From Deltaproteobacteria bacterium (GTDB taxonomy: Bacteria > Myxococcota > Myxococcia > Myxococcales > SZAS-1), in contig JAFEBB010000060.1 in assembly GCA_018266075.1 (NCBI GenBank), positions 1 through 44,781 of the forward strand: 44,781 bases of DNA, written 5' to 3'. This document shows positions 3,952 to 20,422 of this stretch, piece by piece. The notes under the pieces were generated by a model. That model was not told where the DNA came from. It worked only from the letters and a program-made list of their open reading frames with translations, and did not search any database. The stretch's first letter is position 1; each line of letters begins with the position of its first letter. A program made the position numbers and the translations under genes.

Positions 3952-4027
3952 GCGGACGATGAGGATGGCGCGCGGAGCTGTCAGAGACGTGCGCCCCACA
4001 CGCTCCTATCAACGAAACGGAGGAGTC

Positions 4028-4528
4028 ATGCCCCACAAGCCTTCGACGAAAACGCGACGCCGGCGATCGAGTCCGGCATTCGCCTCCATTTTCCCGAAGG
4101 CTGGCCACTTCTCGACCAAGGCCGGCGTGCCGGCCTGGCGTGTACGAGGGAGCGGCGTGAATGGGTCGCCGCTTGAGGCCCCGAACACTGCCCGGATTGC
4201 GGAGCTCCTGGCCAGCTCCGGGCTGCAGGTGACTCCAACGTGCATCATGGGGATGTGCTGTGCCGACCAGTACAACCTCGACGTCGAGTTCCTGGACGGC
4301 GGACTGCAGGCCGTCACAGGGAACTATCTCTTCAATGAGAAGGGTGCCTGGGTGTTTGGGGCTCGAGCTGTACTTTACGTCGCGCTTCGGATGGGGCTCC
4401 GGGTACCTGATGCGTTTCGGTTGGAGCATGGCCTGGTAGGGGTCGACCTGGGCGAACTTGAGGCGGCTCTGCCCCGTCGGCAAGCGGCATCACAGGATGC
4501 CGAGCCCGGCCAGACGAATGACGCTTGA
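4028..4528 (+). CDS. hypothetical protein, 166 aa
   Basis: Not recognised. I chose ATG 4028 because GGAGGAG stands at 4019-4025; an upstream in-frame ATG at 3959 has no such site. The N-terminus is very basic (PHKPSTKTRRRRS), which could bind nucleic acid or be disordered. The middle has IAELLASSGLQVTPTCIMGMCCADQYNLDVEFLDGG, with three Cys, an alpha/beta-looking pattern and no membrane segment. The sequence GCTGTCAG lies 44 bases upstream (3977-3984), as it does near three other genes of this region. Confidence 0.6.
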   Translation: MPHKPSTKTRRRRSSPAFASIFPKAGHFSTKAGVPAWRVRGSGVNGSPLEAPNTARIAELLASSGLQVTPTCIMGMCCADQYNLDVEFLDGGLQAVTGNYLFNEKGAWVFGARAVLYVALRMGLRVPDAFRLEHGLVGVDLGELEAALPRRQAASQDAEPGQTNDA

Positions 4529-6176: not shown

Positions 6177-6836
6177 ATGAGCGCCGAAACAGATCGAGAT
6201 GCTGTGAAGGCGCGGCTCAATGAGGCCCGCGCACTACTCGAGGAATCATCCTACGCGGAAGCCGAGTCCCTGCTCGCACCGCTCGACCAGGAGCTCAATC
6301 TGGCTGGCTTTGTCTCGGCTGAGACGGCGTACCTCCGGGCTTGGGTCCGCATGGGTGCGGCGTCCCTTGAGTTCCGCCAAGGAGCAATCGCGGAGGCGTC
6401 CACCCTACTCGGTGACGCCCTGGACCGCGTCAAGACGTCCTTGCGGCTCGATGCCGGGTCCAGCGACGCACAAGCGCTGCAGGAGGCGGTTCGCTCCGAA
6501 TTGTATAAGGCCGTGTCGCATTTCGCGTCACTCGGGCAGGACCGCGATGCCCTCGCCTTCTACGACACGCTCCGCTGCCGCGAGTTTGCTTCTGGCGAAG
6601 AAACCCACGTCACGGCGGCGAGCTGCCTGCACCGACTCGGGCAAATCGACGACGCGCAACGCGTCCTCGAGGCAATCCTCACTCTGGCCCCGCGGAGCCG
6701 GGCGGCGTGGACCGCCCTCAGTGAGGTGGCGAAGAAGATCGGTGATGCGGAGCTCGAGGAATCATGCGAGCTGGAGTTGTCCACCCTTGAGCCTTTCGCG
6801 CTGCCGCGGCTGCTGCCCGAACTGAAAAAGCTATGA
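6177..6836 (+). CDS. TPR-repeat protein (paralogue of the gene at 4846)
   Basis: The 219-aa helical protein has TPR-like hairpins: ARALLEESSYAEAESLLAPLDQEL, YLRAWVRMGAASLEFRQGAIAEASTLLGDALDRV, SHFASLGQDRDALAFYDTL, and CLHRLGQIDDAQRVLEAILTLAPRSRAAW. Start ATG 6177 has GGAGG at 6163-6167. The order of hairpins and the terminal motif match the gene at 4846, with an extra central hairpin. The preceding 102-base gap contains AT-richer sequence and an imperfect inverted repeat (TACCAAAGAG near 6077 and CTCCTTTGTA near 6100). It ends convergently 64 bases from the minus-strand operon starting at 8632. Function beyond protein-protein contact is unknown. Confidence 0.75.
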   Translation: MSAETDRDAVKARLNEARALLEESSYAEAESLLAPLDQELNLAGFVSAETAYLRAWVRMGAASLEFRQGAIAEASTLLGDALDRVKTSLRLDAGSSDAQALQEAVRSELYKAVSHFASLGQDRDALAFYDTLRCREFASGEETHVTAASCLHRLGQIDDAQRVLEAILTLAPRSRAAWTALSEVAKKIGDAELEESCELELSTLEPFALPRLLPELKKL

Positions 6837-6899
6837 AGTATGCCGCACCTGGAGCCTTGCGCGCCCAACCAAGGACGCACAGGCGATGACCACGGATGT

Positions 6900-7733
6900 C
6901 TAGCCTCGTTCGTCTGGTTTCCTGGTCACCCCAAGCTGAAACAAGTGGCTCCACCGCACGAGCACGACAGACTGGGCATATTCGTCGACCCAAATATCAA
7001 GGCCCTCGCGCGTAGCCACGAGCTCCAATCCTGAAACGCGGAGGCCAGAGGTCCGCTCGGCTCCTACCTCTCGTGCTCTTGGGTGTTCTGGGCCCAGCGC
7101 CCACGCAGTGACGATTCGCGCCAATGCAGCACTGGGAGGCAAGTTCCTCCGCGGGTAGCGAAGGAGTCTCAGAGACTGGAGCTCTCTTGGCCCCAGGAAG
7201 GCGGGGCCCGCGTCGTGCTCCGTCGCAGTGACGAGAAGCCCCCGCGCATTGGTCTCGAAGTGCAGCCCACTGCGAACCAGCGGTCCACACTCGTCGCACA
7301 TCGATTGCGCCTCGATCAGGAGCCTCGCGCGAATGACGTCTCCGGCTACCAGAATGCGCCAGGCAATTGCCTTCAGTAGATCGTCAGCATCTGCGCGTCC
7401 CTCGTCCCGCCTGGATACGTCGCAAGAGCTGCCTTCCTCTGGGCCGTGTCTGTCAACGAGGCGCAGTCGGGTCTGACCCGACCGGCGGGCCAACTGTGCA
7501 GCACGAGCAATGGCTTCGCCCTCGAAGAACTGGCCGAAGGCCACCGCCAGGTCCTTCACGTTGGAAGGCGGCGGATCTCCCAGTTCGGCGCGCCGCGGAT
7601 CACCCCGGGCGATTGGATAGATCACGCGCCGCAACAGCTGATCGAGGTCTTCCAGGTCGAGATTCAGATCGAGCTGCTCGAGGTCTGGATGCAGATTCGC
7701 CGAAGCGATGTCGGGTCTCCAGAGGCGGGCCAT
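6900..7733 (-). CDS. hypothetical protein, third gene of the FHA operon
   Basis: Not recognised. The 277-aa protein starts at ATG 7733 with GAGGGAAGG 8 bases upstream; a GTG at 7742 sits directly on that site. The N-terminal third is rich in Leu/Asp (LHPDLEQLDLNLDLEDLDQLLRRVIYPIARGD). The middle has FGQFFEGEAIARAAQLARRSGQTR and a Cys pair (SMCDECGPL) that might bind a metal. The C-terminus is beta-rich (GLRVSGLELVATREGLDIWVDEYAQSVVLVRWSHLFQLGV). It follows the FHA gene by 18 bases, so co-transcription is likely, and FHA-dependent contact with this protein is a reasonable guess. Confidence 0.62.
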   Translation of the reverse strand: MARLWRPDIASANLHPDLEQLDLNLDLEDLDQLLRRVIYPIARGDPRRAELGDPPPSNVKDLAVAFGQFFEGEAIARAAQLARRSGQTRLRLVDRHGPEEGSSCDVSRRDEGRADADDLLKAIAWRILVAGDVIRARLLIEAQSMCDECGPLVRSGLHFETNARGLLVTATEHDAGPAFLGPRELQSLRLLRYPRRNLPPSAALARIVTAWALGPEHPRAREVGAERTSGLRVSGLELVATREGLDIWVDEYAQSVVLVRWSHLFQLGVTRKPDERG

Positions 7734-11848: not shown

Positions 11849-12160
11849 ATGGCGAACACGATCCCAGACTCACGACCCGACCATCCAGGGCTGGGCGATC
11901 AGGTACCCGAGGCATCTCAAGGGCACGAGGTCCACGACCTGACCGGGGAGCTGGTCGACCCCAACCACCTTCCGGTCGCACTGACCGTTGCCGAGGTGGC
12001 CGCCCTTCTCCGCCTCGACCCGCGCACCGTACGGCGGCTGATCCGGCTCGGCGATCTCGAGGGCAACCAGGCTGGCCATGCCATCCGCGTTCGCCGGGAC
12101 AGCGTACTAGAATGGCTTCGCGGCAAGCGTGCGTCTCGCTCACGAGGGAGTCCTCGATGA
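11849..12160 (+). CDS. excisionase-like HTH protein (MerR-type helix-turn-helix)
   Basis: The 103-aa protein carries a single helix-turn-helix of the DNA-binding excisionase type at about residues 43-88: ALTVAEVAALLRLDPRTVRRLIRLGDLEGNQAGHAIRVRRDSVLEWL. Such proteins steer integrases towards excision or act as small repressors. Its stop overlaps the integrase start (ATGA at 12157-12160), so the two are translationally coupled. I take ATG 11849; a GTG at 11816 is an alternative, and neither has a strong ribosome-binding site. The N-terminal 40 residues are Pro/His/Asp-rich and probably disordered. Confidence 0.8.
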   Translation: MANTIPDSRPDHPGLGDQVPEASQGHEVHDLTGELVDPNHLPVALTVAEVAALLRLDPRTVRRLIRLGDLEGNQAGHAIRVRRDSVLEWLRGKRASRSRGSPR

Positions 12161-13332
12161 GCGTGATGCAGAGGAAGTGGCGCGACCCGAAGACGGGCGC
12201 GCTGAGGAAGTCCTGGATGATCGACGTGACGGTGAGGATGCCGGACGGGTCGAGGTCGCCGCGCGTTCGCATGGCGGCCCCGGTCCAGACGCGCCGTGAC
12301 GCCGAGATCTTCGAAAGGAAGGTGCGCAACGAGATCGAGAATGGGACCTACGGGAAGAAGCCCGAGAAGAAGCTCGCACCCACGCTGAGGGAGTTCGCGC
12401 CCAAGGTGCTCGAGGCGGCCGAAGCCAACCGGTTGAAGCCGTCCACCATCGAGGCCAAGAAGCTCATCCTCGAAGGCCGGCTGATGCGAATGTTCGGCGA
12501 CAAGCGTCTCGACCAGTTCGACGAGCTCGACATCCAGCGCATCAAGGCCGAGATGAAGGAGCGGAACTCCAAGACGGTCAACAACGTCCTGTGCGTGCTC
12601 AACGGCACGCTGAAGCTCGCCGTGAAGCTGAAGGAGATCTCCGCCCTACCCGTCCACATCGAGCTCCTAAAGGTCGAGCTCCGCGACATGGATTTCTACG
12701 AGTTCGGCCAGTACACGGACCTCGTGGAGGCCGCAGGCAAGATCGATCGGCGCACCGTCGCCATGGTCTTGCTCGGGGGCGATGCCGGGCTCCGCCTCGG
12801 CGAGATCCTCGCGCTGGAGTGGACCGACGTCGACTTCAAGCGGAGGCAGCTCCGGATCCAGCGTGGCGAGTGGCGCGGCAAGGTGTCGCTGCCGAAGGGT
12901 GGTCGGGGCAGGAAGATCCCCATGACGAAGGCGCTCACCGCAGCGCTCGAAGACCTTCGACACCTTCGCGGTCCGCGGGTCTTCTACCGGGACGACGGCA
13001 CGCCCATGTCGCAGCAGACGCTGAAGAGCTGGATGGCCCAGGCGCAGAGGCGGGCGAACCTGGAGGTCACCGCAGGCCTCCACATCCTGCGCCACACCTT
13101 CTGCTCGCACCTCGCGATGAGGGCCGTGGCGCCGGTGACCATCAAGGAGCTGGCGGGCCACAAGAGCCTGTCGACGACGATGCGCTACATGCACCTGTCG
13201 CCGTCAGAGAAGGACCGGGCGATCGCCATGCTCGACGACCGCCCGGTGGAATCGATTAGCGAAACTCATGGCACATGCATGGCACATGAGGTGGTTTTCG
13301 AAGATAACCCGCGGCAACTACTACGTCCCTGA
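12157..13332 (+). CDS. int: tyrosine recombinase / site-specific integrase
   Basis: The 391-aa protein has an arm-binding-like N-terminus, a SAM-like core-binding domain (about 75-165) and the catalytic domain. All catalytic residues are visible: Arg213 (GDAGLRLGE), Lys247 (SLPKGGRGRK), His309 and Arg312 (LHILRHTF), His335 (LAGHKSL) and nucleophile Tyr344 (MRYMHLS). Start ATG 12157 overlaps the upstream stop and has GAGGGAG upstream. The last codons (CTA CGT CCC TGA) extend into the 3' end of the convergent tRNA-Glu gene, as expected for an element integrated at that tRNA. Intact and presumably active. The cargo lies to the left. Confidence 0.95.
   Translation: MSVMQRKWRDPKTGALRKSWMIDVTVRMPDGSRSPRVRMAAPVQTRRDAEIFERKVRNEIENGTYGKKPEKKLAPTLREFAPKVLEAAEANRLKPSTIEAKKLILEGRLMRMFGDKRLDQFDELDIQRIKAEMKERNSKTVNNVLCVLNGTLKLAVKLKEISALPVHIELLKVELRDMDFYEFGQYTDLVEAAGKIDRRTVAMVLLGGDAGLRLGEILALEWTDVDFKRRQLRIQRGEWRGKVSLPKGGRGRKIPMTKALTAALEDLRHLRGPRVFYRDDGTPMSQQTLKSWMAQAQRRANLEVTAGLHILRHTFCSHLAMRAVAPVTIKELAGHKSLSTTMRYMHLSPSEKDRAIAMLDDRPVESISETHGTCMAHEVVFEDNPRQLLRP
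13267..13288 (+). repeat. 11-base perfect tandem repeat in the integrase 3' end
   Basis: CATGGCACATG is present twice without gap (13267-13277 and 13278-13288). Each copy is itself a small inverted repeat (CATG-GCA-CATG). It lies about 36 bases from the tRNA end, where integrase-binding sites are expected, so it may be an accessory recombinase site. Confidence 0.7.
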
Positions 13333-14527: not shown

Positions 14528-14609
14528 GCCCCTCGAGGTGCGCAAGCGCCCGGATCGACGTGGATCACCCGCCAGCCAACGTTGCATCGAACGCGACGTC
14601 CGTACTATG

Positions 14610-14629
14610 GATGAGACATATGTCTCATC
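14610..14629. promoter_or_regulatory. 20-base perfect palindrome over the activator start codon
   Basis: GATGAGACATATGTCTCATC reads the same on both strands. It contains the ribosome-binding site (GGATGAG) and the start codon (ATG 14620) of the sigma-54 activator. Its centre is about 120 bases upstream of the predicted DUF1508 transcript start, the usual place for an enhancer bound by such activators. It is therefore likely both the enhancer and an autorepression site. Confidence 0.75.
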
Positions 14630-16125
14630 GCTTGGACACGGAGACCGCGCTCCACTCCGCGGACATGGAGGCGGTGGCGCGGCGGCTGGTGGAGCTGGCG
14701 TGCACCGAGACGGGCACGCGCGACGGCGCCGTCTTCCTCCACGATCCGCGCGCCCAGGGCCTCAAGGTCGACTTCCACATGGTGGAGGGCGTGATCGTGG
14801 CGCTGCCGGGCACGGGCGCCATCCTCCGGCCACGACACGACGGGCGGCCCAACGGCATCGCCCTCGCCTGCTTCCAGAGCGGCGAGCCCTACCTCTGCAA
14901 CGACACCTCTCGCGATCCGCACTACGCGCGCTACTTCCGCGAGGTGTCGTCGGTGCTGGCGGTGCCCATCCCCTGGCAGGGCAAGCCGATGGGGGTGCTC
15001 ACCGTCTCGTCGACGAAGCGCGGCGCCTTCCACCGCGAGCAGGTGGCGACGCTCGAAGAGATTGCCGCGAGCTCGAGCAAGTTCCTTCGGCGCGCGCAGC
15101 TCGCGGGCGCGACACGCGCGGATGGCCGGCCGTTTGTCATCAAGGGCCTCTCGCCCGCGTGGCTCGAGGTGGAGCGGCGCATCGAGCAGGTCTCGGGCAC
15201 CGACGCGCCCGTGCTGGTGCAGGGCGAGAGCGGCACGGGTAAGGACCTCGTCTCGCGCGCCATCCACTTCAACAGCAAGCGCAGCCACAAGCCGTACGTC
15301 ACCGTGAACTGCGCGGCCATCCCGGAGACGATGCTGGAGAGCGTGCTCTTCGGCCACGTGAAGGGCGCGTTCACCGGCGCCACGTTCAACAAGCTCGGCG
15401 AGTTCCAGAAGGCCGACGGCGGCACCCTCTTCCTCGACGAGCTCGGCGAGCTGCCGCTGGCGCTCCAGGCCAAGGTGCTGCGCGCGCTCGAGCAAGGCGA
15501 GGTCACGCCGCTGGGCTCGAACCGCGCGCCCGAGCGCGTGGACGTGCGCGTGATCTGTGCGACGAATCGCGACCTGGCCGCGATGGTGCGCGAGCGCCAG
15601 TTCCGCGACGACCTCTATTACCGCGTCGGTGTCGTGGCCATCGAGCTGCCGCCGCTGCGGACCTATAGGGACAACCTGGAGATCCTCGCTCAGGTCTTCG
15701 TGCAGCAGGCCGCGGAGCGCCACGGCCGGTCGGTGAACCGCATCTCGCGCGGGGCGCTCTCGCTGCTGGCGGCCTACGATTTCCCCGGAAACATGCGCGA
15801 GCTCAAGAACGCCATGGAGCACGCGGTGATCCTCGCGAGCGGAGAAGATCTCGACTCGGAGCACCTGCCCCGCTCCATCCGCGAGAAACCCCCGAGCGCG
15901 CCCGCGCCGACGACGACCGTCGCTTCCACGAAGAAGCCGGCCGCGACGCTCGCCGAGCTCCGCGAGACCTGGCTCGCGCCCAACGAGCGCGCGTACCTGC
16001 AAGCCCTGCTCGCGGCGTCGAACGGCGAGGTGAGCGCGGCCGCCCAGCGCGCAGGCGTGACCCGGGCCACGCTCTACCGGCTGATGAGCAAGCACGGCAT
16101 CACCCTGCGACGCCTGGCGATGTAA
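14620..16125 (+). CDS. sigma-54-dependent activator, GAF-AAA+-Fis
   Basis: The 501-aa protein has an N-terminal GAF sensor (about 10-155; GAVFLHDPRAQGLKVDFHMVEG, LCNDTSRDPHYARYFREVSSVLAVPI), then the AAA+ domain (about 175-400). The AAA+ domain carries Walker A GESGTGKD, the sigma-54-contacting GAFTGA loop, Walker B GGTLFLDELGELP and the sensor/arginine region FRDDLYYRVGV. A Fis-type HTH closes the protein (NGEVSAAAQRAGVTRATLYRLMSKHGI). It hydrolyses ATP to open sigma-54 holoenzyme promoters in response to a ligand bound by GAF. I choose ATG 14620 because GGATGAG is 5 bases upstream; ATG 14611 has no site. Both lie in a perfect palindrome. The divergent DUF1508 gene with its -24/-12 promoter is the evident target. 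A T8 run follows the stop. Confidence 0.93.
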   Translation: MSHRLDTETALHSADMEAVARRLVELACTETGTRDGAVFLHDPRAQGLKVDFHMVEGVIVALPGTGAILRPRHDGRPNGIALACFQSGEPYLCNDTSRDPHYARYFREVSSVLAVPIPWQGKPMGVLTVSSTKRGAFHREQVATLEEIAASSSKFLRRAQLAGATRADGRPFVIKGLSPAWLEVERRIEQVSGTDAPVLVQGESGTGKDLVSRAIHFNSKRSHKPYVTVNCAAIPETMLESVLFGHVKGAFTGATFNKLGEFQKADGGTLFLDELGELPLALQAKVLRALEQGEVTPLGSNRAPERVDVRVICATNRDLAAMVRERQFRDDLYYRVGVVAIELPPLRTYRDNLEILAQVFVQQAAERHGRSVNRISRGALSLLAAYDFPGNMRELKNAMEHAVILASGEDLDSEHLPRSIREKPPSAPAPTTTVASTKKPAATLAELRETWLAPNERAYLQALLAASNGEVSAAAQRAGVTRATLYRLMSKHGITLRRLAM

Positions 16126-16136
16126 CTTTTTTTGTT

Positions 16137-17504
16137 TCATATTTCGAAGTGCAGGCGCAGCGAGCCCACCCACAGAGGCCCGCGGTCGCGGTTGAAGCCC
16201 GGGTTCGCGACGAACTGCGCGTCGATGGCCGCGAAGACCCCGTGGGTGAGGCTGGCCGTGTAGTAGCCCTCGACGATCGTCTCGCGCGCGTAGGTGAGCC
16301 GCCCATCTCCGAGGATGAAGCCGCTGCCGCCGAGCGCGAGGTACTCGCGGTGATCCGGCGAGAGGCCGTTGGTCACGGCCGAGAGCCCGCTCGAGTCCAG
16401 GCTGCGGCCGTAGAGCGAGCCGTCGAGGTGCAGCCCGAGCTCCACGGTGTCGTCCACCTCGGTGTACGCAAACGACTCGTTGTGCCCCTCGTTCCAGCCC
16501 GCGCGCGCGAAGCACGCGAGCGGGCCCTGGAGCGTCTGCTCCAGGTTCCCGCTGAAGCCGTACTTGATGCGGCCCTTCTCGCGGTGCGCGTCCACGTTCG
16601 GCACCGGATCGACGCCGAGCTGGTACGCGGTGATCGCCTCCCGGTAGCTGCCCATGTCGGCGTGGTTCGCGTAGCCGATGAGCCGCACCACGCCGGCGCG
16701 CTCGGCGATCGACTCGCGGATGTCCACCTCGAGGTTCTCCGCGTGCGCGTGCTGAATGTCGAAGTCGTAGTCGGGCCCGTTGGCGATTGTGGGCATGAGC
16801 ATGGCGCCGAAGAGCACACCGAAGCGCGGCTCTTCGTAGTCGAGGATCGCGCCGAGCGTGTAGCCGCGCGTGTCGGCCGCGTAGTCGTAGGAGCCGTTGT
16901 TGTCGACGGTCCAGTTCATGAACTGCAGGTGGCTGTCGGAGCCGTAGCTGTTGGTGTCGAAGAAGTCCGCGGTGCCGAACTTGCCCGCGCGCAGCTCCAG
17001 CCGCCGCTTCGGCACCTTGCCCGCGAGGTGCAGGTTGTCGCGGTGCTCTTCGACCTCGTCGCTCGAGAAGGAGATGATCTGCCGCACCATCGCGCGGGCG
17101 ATGTAGGGCGCGGGCCCGAGCGTGGGGTTGCGCACCACGTCGAGGTCGGTGAAGCCACCCAGGCCGAGCGCGTCGCCGATGCCGCGGCCGCCGGCCGACT
17201 CGACGTCGAACAGCAGCTCCGTGAGGTGCGTGACCCGCGCGCCCAGGTAGAGCGTGGCCACGTACGACGTCCGCGCCTCGGCGCTCGCGCTCAAGCTGTT
17301 CGGCCCGCTGTACGGCGACGTGAACGTGGGGTGCGCCTGGGTGATGAGGTTCACCTGCCCGGAGCTCCACCACCAGGTGTCGGGATGCGAGAAGAGCGTG
17401 GCGCCGTCCGGATCGAGCACCGGCACCGAATCGGACTGCGCCTGCGCCGGCCCGGCGACCACCAGCAGGAGTCCCACGGAGAGTGCGGAGAGCGAGCGCG
17501 CCAT
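16137..17504 (-). CDS. OprB-family carbohydrate-type porin
   Basis: The 455-aa precursor starts at ATG 17504 with a signal peptide (MARSLSALSVGLLLVVAGPAQAQ). The mature part follows the OprB pattern: WWSSGQVNLITQAHPTFTSPYSGPNSLSA, the LYLGARVTHLTELLFDVE strand, GFTDLDVVRNPTLGPAPYIARAMVR, and many amphipathic strands ending in LRLHFEI with a terminal aromatic-Glu-Ile typical of barrel ends. It should form an outer-membrane channel for small solutes; substrate is not evident. The promoter region contains three RcnR-type operators, one only 10 bases from the start codon, and the divergent gene encodes an RcnR-like sensor. Metal-dependent expression is therefore inferred. It converges with the sigma-54 activator gene, 11 bases apart. 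Confidence 0.87.
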   Translation of the reverse strand: MARSLSALSVGLLLVVAGPAQAQSDSVPVLDPDGATLFSHPDTWWWSSGQVNLITQAHPTFTSPYSGPNSLSASAEARTSYVATLYLGARVTHLTELLFDVESAGGRGIGDALGLGGFTDLDVVRNPTLGPAPYIARAMVRQIISFSSDEVEEHRDNLHLAGKVPKRRLELRAGKFGTADFFDTNSYGSDSHLQFMNWTVDNNGSYDYAADTRGYTLGAILDYEEPRFGVLFGAMLMPTIANGPDYDFDIQHAHAENLEVDIRESIAERAGVVRLIGYANHADMGSYREAITAYQLGVDPVPNVDAHREKGRIKYGFSGNLEQTLQGPLACFARAGWNEGHNESFAYTEVDDTVELGLHLDGSLYGRSLDSSGLSAVTNGLSPDHREYLALGGSGFILGDGRLTYARETIVEGYYTASLTHGVFAAIDAQFVANPGFNRDRGPLWVGSLRLHFEI

Positions 17505-17513
17505 GGCCGGGCC

Positions 17514-17611
17514 GATACCCACCCCGGGTATCCCATGGCCGCGAGATATACCCACCCTCAGTATCCGTCAACCCACAATCCCGCGACTGGCTCGGATACC
17601 GGGTGGGGTAT
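17514..17611. promoter_or_regulatory. three RcnR/CsoR-type operators
   Basis: Site 1: GATACCC-N5-GGGTATC (17514-17532), perfect 7-base arms. Site 2: ATAC-N9-GTAT (17548-17564). Site 3: ATAC-N8-GTAT (17596-17611). On one strand all have a G-rich centre (for example TACTGAGGGTGGGTA for site 2). This matches the known RcnR layout of TAC, a G-tract, and GTA. They span the whole gap between the porin and sensor genes. Confidence 0.8.
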
Positions 17612-17623
17612 ATGCTGCCGCGC

Positions 17624-17902
17624 ATGGCCCACCTCATCCGCGAGAAGAAGAAGCTCATCAACCGCGTTCGCCGCATTCGTGGGCAGCTCGACGCGGTGGA
17701 GCGCGCCCTCGCCGACGAAGAGGAGTGCGCGAAGATCCTCCTCACCATTGCCGCGTGTCGGGGCGCGGTGGACGGCCTGATGTCCGAGGTCTTCGACGGC
17801 CACATCCGGATGCACATGGCGGATCCCGACTCGAACCCCAAGTCGGAGCGCTCGCGCGCCGCCCGCGAGCTCATCGAGGCCGCGCGCGCATATCTGCGCT
17901 AG
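17624..17902 (+). CDS. RcnR/CsoR-family metal-sensing repressor
   Basis: The 92-aa all-helical protein belongs to the CsoR/RcnR/FrmR family of tetrameric repressors. The residues that mark nickel/cobalt sensing in E. coli RcnR are present: His3 (MAHLIREK), Cys35 (EEECAKIL), His60 and His64 (DGHIRMHM). The CsoR copper pattern (Cys-His-Cys) and the FrmR formaldehyde pattern fit less well; the extra Cys45 is unusual. Start ATG 17624 gives the conserved MxH N-terminus. It is divergent from the OprB porin with three matching operators in between, so it should repress both until metal is bound. A full Ni/Co exporter gene is not adjacent. Confidence 0.88.
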   Translation: MAHLIREKKKLINRVRRIRGQLDAVERALADEEECAKILLTIAACRGAVDGLMSEVFDGHIRMHMADPDSNPKSERSRAARELIEAARAYLR

Positions 17903-17953: not shown

Positions 17954-18868
17954 GTGATCCCCTCCGTGCGCGCGCTCCTGCAACGTCGGGCCATTCTGGT
18001 GACGGGCAAAGGCGGGGTGGGAAAGACCACCCTGGCCGCGGCGATCGCCCACCTCGGCGCGCGGAGCGGCAAGCGCGTGCTCGTTGCCGAGGTCTCCTAC
18101 GAGCCCGACGCCACCTCGCCGCTCGCCCGCGCGCTCGGCCTGGAGCGGCTCAGCGAAGAGCCCAAGGCCATCGCGCCGAGCTTGAAAGCGGTGCTGCTCA
18201 CGCCCACCTCCGGGCACGTGCGCTTCTTGCGCGCCACGCTCCCGGTGAAGCGGCTGGCCGACGCCGCCCTGCGCGCCGCCGCCATCCGCCGCTTCCTGCT
18301 CGCCGCGCCCACGCTCGCCGAGATGGGCATCCTCTATCGCATCCTCGATCTCGTGAACGAGAAGCGAGCCGACGGCAGCTTCGAGAACGAGCTCGTGGTC
18401 GTGGACCTGCCCGCCACCGGCCACGCCATGGGGCTCGCCCAGATTCCCAGCGCCATCCTCGAGGTGATCCGCTCCGGCCCCATCGCCACGGCCACGCGCG
18501 AGGGCATCGCACTCTTGAAGGACCCGAGCCGCACCACGAGCGTGGTGGTCACGCTCCCCGAGACGCTGCCCGTGAGCGAGGCGATGGAGCTCGTGCAGAG
18601 CATCCAGCACAGCGCCATTCCCTTCTCGGGCGTGGTGCTCAACCGCATGCCCGAAGATCCCTTCGTGGCCGCGGAGCGCGAGGCGGTGGACGCTTGGGTG
18701 CAAGGCAAGGCGCTGCTCGGCGCGCGCTCGCTGCCGCGGATCGATCGCGCGCGTCACGCCGAGGCCCGCCTGCGCCAACTTCGTGTGCCGGTGATGTCGG
18801 TGGGCGAGCTGGCGACAAGCGGGCACGTGGCGCCGTCGCTCGCCGACGCGTTGGGGAGCTTCTCGTGA
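17954..18868 (+). CDS. Get3/ArsA-like ATPase, first of a pair (Rv3679-like)
   Basis: The 304-aa cytosolic ATPase has the deviant Walker A GKGGVGKTT (about 18-26, with the signature Lys), a switch-like VVVDLPATGHAMGLAQIP, and VVVTLPETLPVSEAMELVQ. The DLPATGH motif and the order match the actinobacterial Get3-like protein Rv3679. Such pairs form Get3-like heteromers; in M. tuberculosis the pair is linked to envelope and redox functions. No Cys-rich arsenite-binding site is seen, so arsenic export is unlikely. Start GTG 17954 has only weak upstream GGGG. The next gene overlaps it by 4 bases. Confidence 0.87.
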   Translation: MIPSVRALLQRRAILVTGKGGVGKTTLAAAIAHLGARSGKRVLVAEVSYEPDATSPLARALGLERLSEEPKAIAPSLKAVLLTPTSGHVRFLRATLPVKRLADAALRAAAIRRFLLAAPTLAEMGILYRILDLVNEKRADGSFENELVVVDLPATGHAMGLAQIPSAILEVIRSGPIATATREGIALLKDPSRTTSVVVTLPETLPVSEAMELVQSIQHSAIPFSGVVLNRMPEDPFVAAEREAVDAWVQGKALLGARSLPRIDRARHAEARLRQLRVPVMSVGELATSGHVAPSLADALGSFS

Positions 18869-19998
18869 ACGAGCGGCGCACGCCCGACGCCCCGCCCTAC
18901 CTCGACGCGCTCCTGCGCGCCCAGCGGGTGATCGTGTGCTGCGGCGCCGGCGGCGTGGGCAAGACCACCACCGCGGCCGCGCTGGGCCTGGCCGCCGCGA
19001 GGCAGGGCCGTCGAGTGCTGGTGCTGACGATCGATCCTGCGCGCCGACTCGGCGAGGCCCTCGGGTTGCGCGAGAGCGGGCCCACACCTTCGCGCGTGGA
19101 GCGCGCCGGCGCGATGGACGCGTGGATGTTGGATCCGCGCGTGGTCTTCGAAGACATGGTGCGCCGTCTCACCGCCGACGAGGCCAAGGTTCAGCGCATC
19201 CTCCAGAACAAGCTCTACCGCGCGCTCCGCGACCTGGTGGCCGGCATGCAGGAGTACACCGCGGCCGAGGCGCTCTTCGGCTTCGTGGAGTGCGGCAAGT
19301 ACGACCTGGTGGTCCTCGACACGCCACCCTCGCGCAACGCGCTGGAGTTCCTGGAGGCGCCGAGAAAGCTCTCCCTCTTCCTCGACGAGCGCATCGTGGG
19401 CGTGTTCATGCCCAGCGAGGGCGCGAACGTGCTCATGCGCGGCGCGCGCTCGCTGGTGGGAACCATCTTCGACCGCGTCTTCGGCGAGGGATTCCTCGGC
19501 GAGGTGCAGGAGTTCCTCTCCGCGTTCTCGGGGATGTTCTCGGCCATGCGCGGCCACTCGGAGGCGGTGCGGAGCCTGCTCACCGGGCCGCAGGCGTCGT
19601 TCGTGGTGGTCACCAGCCCCGAGCCCTCGGCGATCGACGAGGGCCAGTTCCTGCACGAGCACCTGGTGAAGCTGGGGCTGCCCTTCGCGGGCTACGTGCT
19701 CAACCGCAGCTGGGCGTACACGCGCGGGCTGAGCGGGCCGGAGACGCTCGAGCTCCCGGCAGACGCGTCGGAAGCGCTCCGCGCCGGATACCAGAAGCTC
19801 TGCGGCCTCGCGGATCACGAGCGGCAGCTCGCCGCCCGCGATCGCGCCCTGCTCGCCACGCTCGCCGCCCGCGGCCGGCCCGCGGTGGCCACGCCCAACC
19901 TCGGCGGCGCCATCGAAGACTTCGAGGGCTTGCTCTCCCTGGCCGAGAGCTTCGTCTCGCGCGAGCGCGCGCCCGACGCACTCACCTCGGCATCGTGA
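18865..19998 (+). CDS. Get3/ArsA-like ATPase, second of a pair (Rv3680-like)
   Basis: The 377-aa protein starts at GTG 18865, overlapping the upstream stop (GTGA). RVIVCCGAGGVGKTTTAAALGLAAA contains the P-loop, and the following TIDPARRLGEALGL and LVVLDTPPSRNALEFLEAP are hallmarks of the Rv3680 subgroup. The P-loop is GAGGVGKT: the signature Lys of deviant Walker A (GKGG) is Ala, as in Rv3680, while the upstream partner keeps it. A heteromer with one signature Lys is therefore likely. A central hydrophobic segment (about 180-250, LFLDERIVGVFMPSEGANVLMRGARSLVGTIFDRVF) resembles the client-binding helical part of Get3. Its end overlaps a convergent membrane-protein gene by 17 bases. Confidence 0.88.
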   Translation: MNERRTPDAPPYLDALLRAQRVIVCCGAGGVGKTTTAAALGLAAARQGRRVLVLTIDPARRLGEALGLRESGPTPSRVERAGAMDAWMLDPRVVFEDMVRRLTADEAKVQRILQNKLYRALRDLVAGMQEYTAAEALFGFVECGKYDLVVLDTPPSRNALEFLEAPRKLSLFLDERIVGVFMPSEGANVLMRGARSLVGTIFDRVFGEGFLGEVQEFLSAFSGMFSAMRGHSEAVRSLLTGPQASFVVVTSPEPSAIDEGQFLHEHLVKLGLPFAGYVLNRSWAYTRGLSGPETLELPADASEALRAGYQKLCGLADHERQLAARDRALLATLAARGRPAVATPNLGGAIEDFEGLLSLAESFVSRERAPDALTSAS

Positions 19999-20422
19999 CC
20001 TGACGAGCGCCCGCGCTGAGCATCACCGCCGCGATGATGCCGAGCACGAAGCCCACCATCAACGCGAACGGCGAGCCAAAGAGCACGCCCGCGAGCACCG
20101 GCTTCACCAGGTACGAGTAGCGATCGCCGCCGTGCCCACTCAGCGCGACGGGGACGTTGGCGATCGCCACGCCCACCGACGCGCTCGCCAGCGCGCCCAC
20201 GCCCAGGAGCGGGAAGAGCCAGAGCGCGTGCCCGCTGCCGAGGTCCAGGACCGGCGCGACACGCGGCGCGACGTTCTGCACGAAGACCAGCGCCGCGACC
20301 ACCGCGACCATGCCCTGCATCCAGAGCTGCGCGCTGAACAACATCAAGCCGGCCAGCACCGCCCCCGTGATCACCCCCACCACGCCGCACGTCCGCGTCA
20401 CTCTCGTCGCTCGAATCGACAT
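19982..20422 (-). CDS. small integral membrane protein, about four segments
   Basis: Not recognised. The 146-aa product starts at ATG 20422 with GAGGAGAG upstream. It has four hydrophobic segments: VVGVITGAVLAGLMLFSAQLW, MVAVVAALVFVQNV, LWLFPLLGVGALASASVGVAIA and VLAGVLFGSPFALMVGFVLGIIAAVML. Short charged loops lie between, and the N-terminus is basic. Convergent with the ATPase pair, with overlapping stops; no functional link is evident. Confidence 0.7.
   Translation of the reverse strand: MSIRATRVTRTCGVVGVITGAVLAGLMLFSAQLWMQGMVAVVAALVFVQNVAPRVAPVLDLGSGHALWLFPLLGVGALASASVGVAIANVPVALSGHGGDRYSYLVKPVLAGVLFGSPFALMVGFVLGIIAAVMLSAGARQVTMPR

Follow-up and report, generated by a model that had tools for sequence, protein, structure and literature searches.

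A CsoR/RcnR-family repressor gene paired with a divergent OprB porin gene across three predicted operators in a Myxococcales bacterium

A stretch of 44,781 nucleotides from a Deltaproteobacteria bacterium of the order Myxococcales (GenBank assembly GCA_018266075.1, contig JAFEBB010000060.1), referred to in full as the window, carries two divergent genes that appear to share one regulatory region. On the forward strand lies a repressor gene of the CsoR/RcnR family (17624..17902, from the ATG at 17624 to the stop at 17902). Its 92-aa product, hereafter the sensor, matches the family profile PF02583 with 75.4 bits (cut-off 22.8) and is the sole PF02583 protein in the 7.84-Mb source genome. On the reverse strand lies the gene of an OprB-family outer-membrane porin of 455 aa with a signal peptide (16137..17504), recognized by its profile match to PF04966 (OprB; 97.6 bits, cut-off 22.9) and by its predicted fold (predicted local distance difference test score, pLDDT, 81), for which the best PDB match is Pseudomonas putida OprB (4gey, template modelling score, TM, 0.69/0.74). 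It is likewise the only OprB protein in the source genome. The original prediction for this locus placed an OprB-type porin across shared operators from an RcnR-like nickel/cobalt sensor, and its assignment of the porin holds.

The gap between the two genes (17505-17623) is 119 bp long and contains three predicted operators. The first, ATACCCACCCCGGGTAT (17515..17531), is a TAC-N9-GTA site that starts 11 bp upstream of the porin ATG; the second, ATACCCACCCTCAGTAT (17548..17564), has the same spacing and one mismatch to TACC-N7-GGTA; the third, ATACCGGGTGGGGTAT (17596..17611), is a TAC-N8-GTA site that ends 12 bp before the sensor ATG. These are the three TAC-N8/9-GTA sites named in the original prediction, and they exceed chance: dinucleotide shuffles of the gap hold a mean of 0.21 sites of the TACC-N6/7-GGTA type, and only 3/5000 shuffles hold three or more. 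A pseudopalindromic operator with a G/C tract upstream of the repressor's own gene is characteristic of the family, and here three such predicted sites are found that are conserved with the sensor. Across the source genome ATACC-N4..8-GGTAT occurs at 12 places, two of them in this gap. The sole other C/G-rich pair falls within a repeated stretch, just past the stop codon of an unrelated gene, and the source genome yielded no convincing additional operator that would mark further regulon members. Elsewhere in the same genome, ATACCAAGCGATGGTAT is present as tandem copies with 42-63 bp spacing (G000:C109:14778-14941), which look like a repeat and not like a sensor operator. No sigma-70-like promoters were recognized in the gap by simple consensus.

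A scan of public genomes returned 80 relatives of the sensor. With a divergent pair defined as a porin directly divergent from the sensor across a gap of no more than 470 bp, 53 such loci exist besides the window, and their carriers include the named cultured strains Granulicella aggregans, Terriglobus albidus, Occallatibacter savannae, Acidicapsa dinghuensis and Reyranella massiliensis. The gap contains an exact TACC-N5..8-GGTA site in 49 of these 53 pairs, and a site with at most one mismatch in all 53. As a control, the corresponding upstream region was compared for 20 orthologous porins without an adjacent sensor; it held no exact site (0/20) and one-mismatch sites in two cases (2/20); for exact sites the contrast gives a Fisher p of 2.5e-14, uncorrected for phylogeny. 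Lack of conservation of the sites in orthologous loci had been set beforehand as grounds for abandoning the idea, and both the pair and its sites proved to be conserved. Two sites 22 bp apart are seen in many Acidobacterial loci. Sensor and porin also co-vary: among 120 Acidobacteriaceae genomes the porin occurs in 82, the sensor in 49 and both in 47, so that the porin is present in 47/49 genomes with the sensor vs 35/71 without it (p 1.8e-8), and the 32 pairs that are adjacent are divergent in every case (32/32).

Several separate OprB lineages are found next to the sensor. In trees, the sensor and the porin of the window both fall outside the main Acidobacterial sensor-linked clades, and a single clade of porin-linked sensors that includes the window is not rejected (approximately unbiased test, p 0.35). 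One Acidobacterial sensor locus (L056, 2432-3805) encodes a porin only 34% identical to that of the window, which branches apart from the main porin clade; another OprB lineage may have refilled the porin slot. In three Alphaproteobacterial loci (L013, L017, L037) the porins are 586-749 aa long, with OprB fused to an additional OMP_b-brl domain at its N-terminus.

The sensor carries Ala2, His3, Glu34, Cys35, Cys45, His60, Met63 and His64 (Met = 1), among them the four residues (His3, Cys35, His60 and His64) listed in the original prediction, which form a Ni/Co-type ligand set. Cys35, at the start of helix 2 (position X), and His60 are hallmarks of the family. Among the relatives of the sensor Cys35 is kept in 80/80, His60 in 76/79 and His64 in 77/79. 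RcnR binds Co(II) through its N-terminal amine, His3, Glu34, Cys35, Glu63 and His64 (PMC7055735), and every side chain of this Co/Ni set is present in the sensor except Glu63, which is Met. An HCHH-type ligand set has been described for both RcnR and DmeR, in which metal binding releases the DNA (PMC7055735). By these sequence measures the sensor does not qualify as RcnR proper, because it falls short of the NCBIfam equivalog cut-offs for RcnR (NF011613; 70.5 bits, cut-off 138) and FrmR (NF008464; 91.5 bits, cut-off 133) and has Met in place of Glu63; of the label RcnR-like, the metal fingerprint survives and the strict identity does not. Ala2 (not Pro2) and His64 (not Glu64) point to a metal sensor rather than a protein of the FrmR type. 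The suggestion that Cys45 might change metal specificity is not supported, because this residue is not tied to pairing with a porin: Alphaproteobacterial relatives next to DmeF/NRMT genes have it too, and most porin-linked Acidobacterial sensors have Val there.

Genes beside several related sensors concern metal efflux. For instance, in two loci of the same order (L093 and L094), sensors 57/54% identical to that of the window precede a heavy-metal P-type ATPase gene with the same operator type. In the same phylum, a sensor has the gene of the Co/Ni efflux protein DmeF on one side and that of a COG0523/CobW-type GTPase on the other (L096), and CDF efflux genes follow Proteobacterial relatives of the sensor (L007, L015, L016, L078). 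The CDF gene of L007 encodes DmeF (489 bits, cut-off 250); DmeF equivalogs above cut-off come after the sensor in L007 and L096, and DmeF follows relatives of the window sensor in Alphaproteobacteria, Ramlibacter and one genome of the same phylum. Another example is Granulicella aggregans, where a second strict operator precedes a CzcCBA-type (CzcA-family RND) operon by about 80 bp. This site is suggestive only, since extra strict operators are not clearly enriched in genomes with the sensor (about 12 in 32 sensor genomes vs 9 in 32 control genomes), and for the same reason a wider regulon of the porin-linked sensor was not adopted. Among the other candidates set aside, one operator precedes an NRMT-type gene by about 590 bp (G317), too distant to be firm, and two strict sites from a 13-genome scan lie near unrelated genes (L126, L135). 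Two metagenome-assembled genomes, one labeled 'Chloroflexi' (L003) and one 'Myxococcales' (L004), have a sensor, flanks and P-type ATPase gene that look identical; their names point to one study, and the identity suggests a mis-binned contig. On one Acidobacterial contig (L044), two sensor-family members lie about 2.4 kb apart (4001-4282 and about 6695-6949), one of them followed by a P-type ATPase gene.

A further set of neighbors concerns cation import. Nramp genes are divergent from the sensor in six loci (L005, L007, L010, L013, L024, L043). The Nramp protein of L013 matches EleNRMT (7qia) at 5e-46, with the next structure at 1.6e-15, and shows the NRMT residue pattern (DxxG, TTxA); EleNRMT carries Mg2+ and Mn2+ (PMC8806188). 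MgtC-family genes are present in seven sensor loci (L005, L017, L024, L035, L037, L039, L061), and Nramp adjoins the porin in sensor-less Acidobacteria as well (L143, L147, L148, L158). Copper seems to be handled elsewhere. In Acidobacteria, five other strict operators precede copZ-copA or copA genes, and a separate CsoR paralogue is encoded close to each of them; several genomes have such a copper paralogue in addition to the porin-linked sensor. Copper was therefore rejected as a candidate and is probably not the signal of the porin-linked sensor.

The explanation that we favor, and hold to be fairly probable, is that a Co/Ni-type sensor represses itself and the divergent OprB porin, that metal releases it, and that the porin is a metal-derepressed channel for divalent cations, slightly more probably for import. 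Sequence comparison supplies the pair and its sites, shows that they are conserved and co-vary, and places metal-transport genes around them; from the family we infer, by analogy, repression, release by metal and the Ni/Co identity. The sensor would respond to metal, with Co(II)/Ni(II) the likeliest signal, a best guess that draws on the ligand set, the DmeF neighbors and the separate copper paralogue. In its metal-free form it would occupy the three TACC-N6/7-GGTA operators and repress both its own gene and the divergent porin gene. Metal bound at the N-terminus, His3, Cys35, His60 and His64 would cause the sensor to leave the DNA, and the porin would be made as metal rises. As an outer-membrane channel for divalent cations, it could let in hard cations (Mg2+/Mn2+), which are harmless and would compete with the toxic metal. 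The metal-regulated channel of the original prediction fits the recurrent DmeF, NRMT/Nramp, MgtC and P-type ATPase neighbors, and as a whole that interpretation is partly supported.

Direction and substrate are speculative. Import of Mg/Mn during Co/Ni stress is slightly favored over passive exit of metal because of the recurring Nramp/NRMT and MgtC neighbors. A more ambitious proposal, which we put forward tentatively, is that the Co/Ni sensor switches on a Mg2+/Mn2+ supply line besides or instead of efflux, composed of the OprB porin, a non-proton-coupled NRMT transporter and MgtC, and that cells tolerate toxic Co/Ni in part because Mg2+ out-competes it; the window would then represent a stripped-down, porin-only form.

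The strongest rival, a possible but rather unlikely one, is that the porin serves as a passive outer-membrane outlet for Co, Ni or Zn pushed into the periplasm by CDF or P-type ATPase exporters. The same sensor group appears to control DmeF and P-type exporters, the second operator of G. aggregans precedes an efflux operon, and export genes are what known CsoR/RcnR nickel sensors derepress (PMC7055735). Yet a passive porin would admit metal from outside as well, the inner-membrane genes that recur beside the porin are Nramp/NRMT importers and MgtC and not exporters alone, and in the window the porin has no exporter gene next to it.

Several observations weigh against the favored explanation itself. 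His3 is missing from about 40% of the sensor homologues and the RcnR ligand Glu63 is replaced by Met or Phe, with Met63 in the window; given these changes, the metal identity of the sensor may have drifted. Of the 82 porin-bearing Acidobacteriaceae genomes 35 are without the sensor, and the porin is therefore usable without it. A channel induced by a toxic metal is counter-intuitive whichever direction the ions flow, and OprB porins carry their name from sugars. For the window, a partnership with NRMT would be by analogy only, because no Nramp gene was found in the source genome. Finally, FrmR is the top NCBIfam match of the sensor, followed by RcnR, and FrmR structures (5lbm, 5lcy) are its nearest relatives in the PDB. 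These matches, together with the presence of true FrmR-frmA loci in the same order, would suit a sensor for formaldehyde (FrmR-like) or other reactive species beside a porin for small organic molecules. We regard this as improbable: the FrmR cut-off is missed, true FrmR proteins from this order carry Pro2 and Glu64 where the window sensor has Ala2 and His64, and the sensor falls outside the FrmR clade (support 100/97). Moreover, frmA was seen next to none of the porin-linked sensors and was absent among the annotated genes flanking the window sensor, and an E64H variant of FrmR acquires a Zn/Co response (PMC4528141, PMC5016687).

Downstream of the sensor on the same strand are two ArsA/Get3-type ATPase genes (BagA/BagB-like; 17954-20003), which start 51 bp after it and could be co-transcribed with it; the nearest relatives of the sensor are followed by other genes. 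That short distance, and the fact that autoregulatory sites can sit in any divergent gap, would allow the sensor to regulate only itself, perhaps with the ATPase genes, and the porin to be a chance neighbor, but this is very improbable given an operator starting 11 bp from the porin ATG, a divergent pair found again in dozens of species, where several distinct OprB lineages adjoin the sensor, and the lack of exact sites at sensor-less porins (0/20). On the other side of the porin, a GAF-sigma54-Fis activator gene (14560-16125, forward strand) ends 11 bp from the stop of the convergent porin gene. The window also contains an integrase gene (12112-13332), and no defence families were found.

Characterized CsoR/RcnR Ni/Co sensors control exporters of the cytoplasmic membrane. 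If the favored explanation is true, the outer membrane would be a regulated step of transition-metal stress, a group of 'OprB carbohydrate porins' common in Acidobacteriaceae would gain a function, and Co/Ni sensing would be linked, in a testable way, to Mg/Mn supply through NRMT and MgtC. That dozens of soil bacteria share the pairing, frequently with genes for magnesium or cobalt handling alongside, suggests that some bacteria have a metal-switched outer-membrane channel.

Among known systems, RcnR/rcnA of Escherichia coli shares with the window the regulator family, the residues H3, E34, C35, H60 and H64, a cleavable Met followed by a small residue 2, and a divergent gap whose operators have the TAC-N8/9-GTA form and contain a G/C tract. 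The RcnR operator is TACT-G6-N-AGTA, present as two sites (PMC7055735); in contrast, the window has three predicted operators with C and not T at position 4, Met instead of Glu63, and a porin as its target instead of the efflux pump RcnA. DmeR-DmeF of rhizobia has the same HCHH fingerprint, and DmeF follows relatives of the window sensor, but the window lacks an adjacent dmeF and its divergent gene encodes a porin. FrmR is closest by sequence, and its engineered, Zn/Co-responsive E64H form shares His64 (PMC4528141); the window sensor differs in its natural His64, the absence of Pro2 and frmA, and the missed cut-off. The CsoR-copZ-copA operons of Acidobacteria have similar C/G-rich palindromes and differ in paralogue and target. 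On the porin side, Slr1908 of Synechocystis and porins of Anabaena link the OprB family to metal uptake (PMC9705863), and in Geobacter sulfurreducens an OprB gene has a predicted FUR box and occurs with feoAB (PMC545781). Slr1908 and the Geobacter OprB resemble the window porin in family and in their link to metal ions, but concern iron and are not paired with a CsoR/RcnR-type repressor. MnoP of Bradyrhizobium partners with MntH and responds to manganese shortage, not to metal excess; it is another channel under another regulator. Full-text literature searches, which mostly do not cover subscription journals, returned no description of an OprB porin controlled by a CsoR/RcnR-family regulator. 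Both protein families are known, as are porins linked to metals; their conserved combination appears new, with a new kind of target for a known regulator family.
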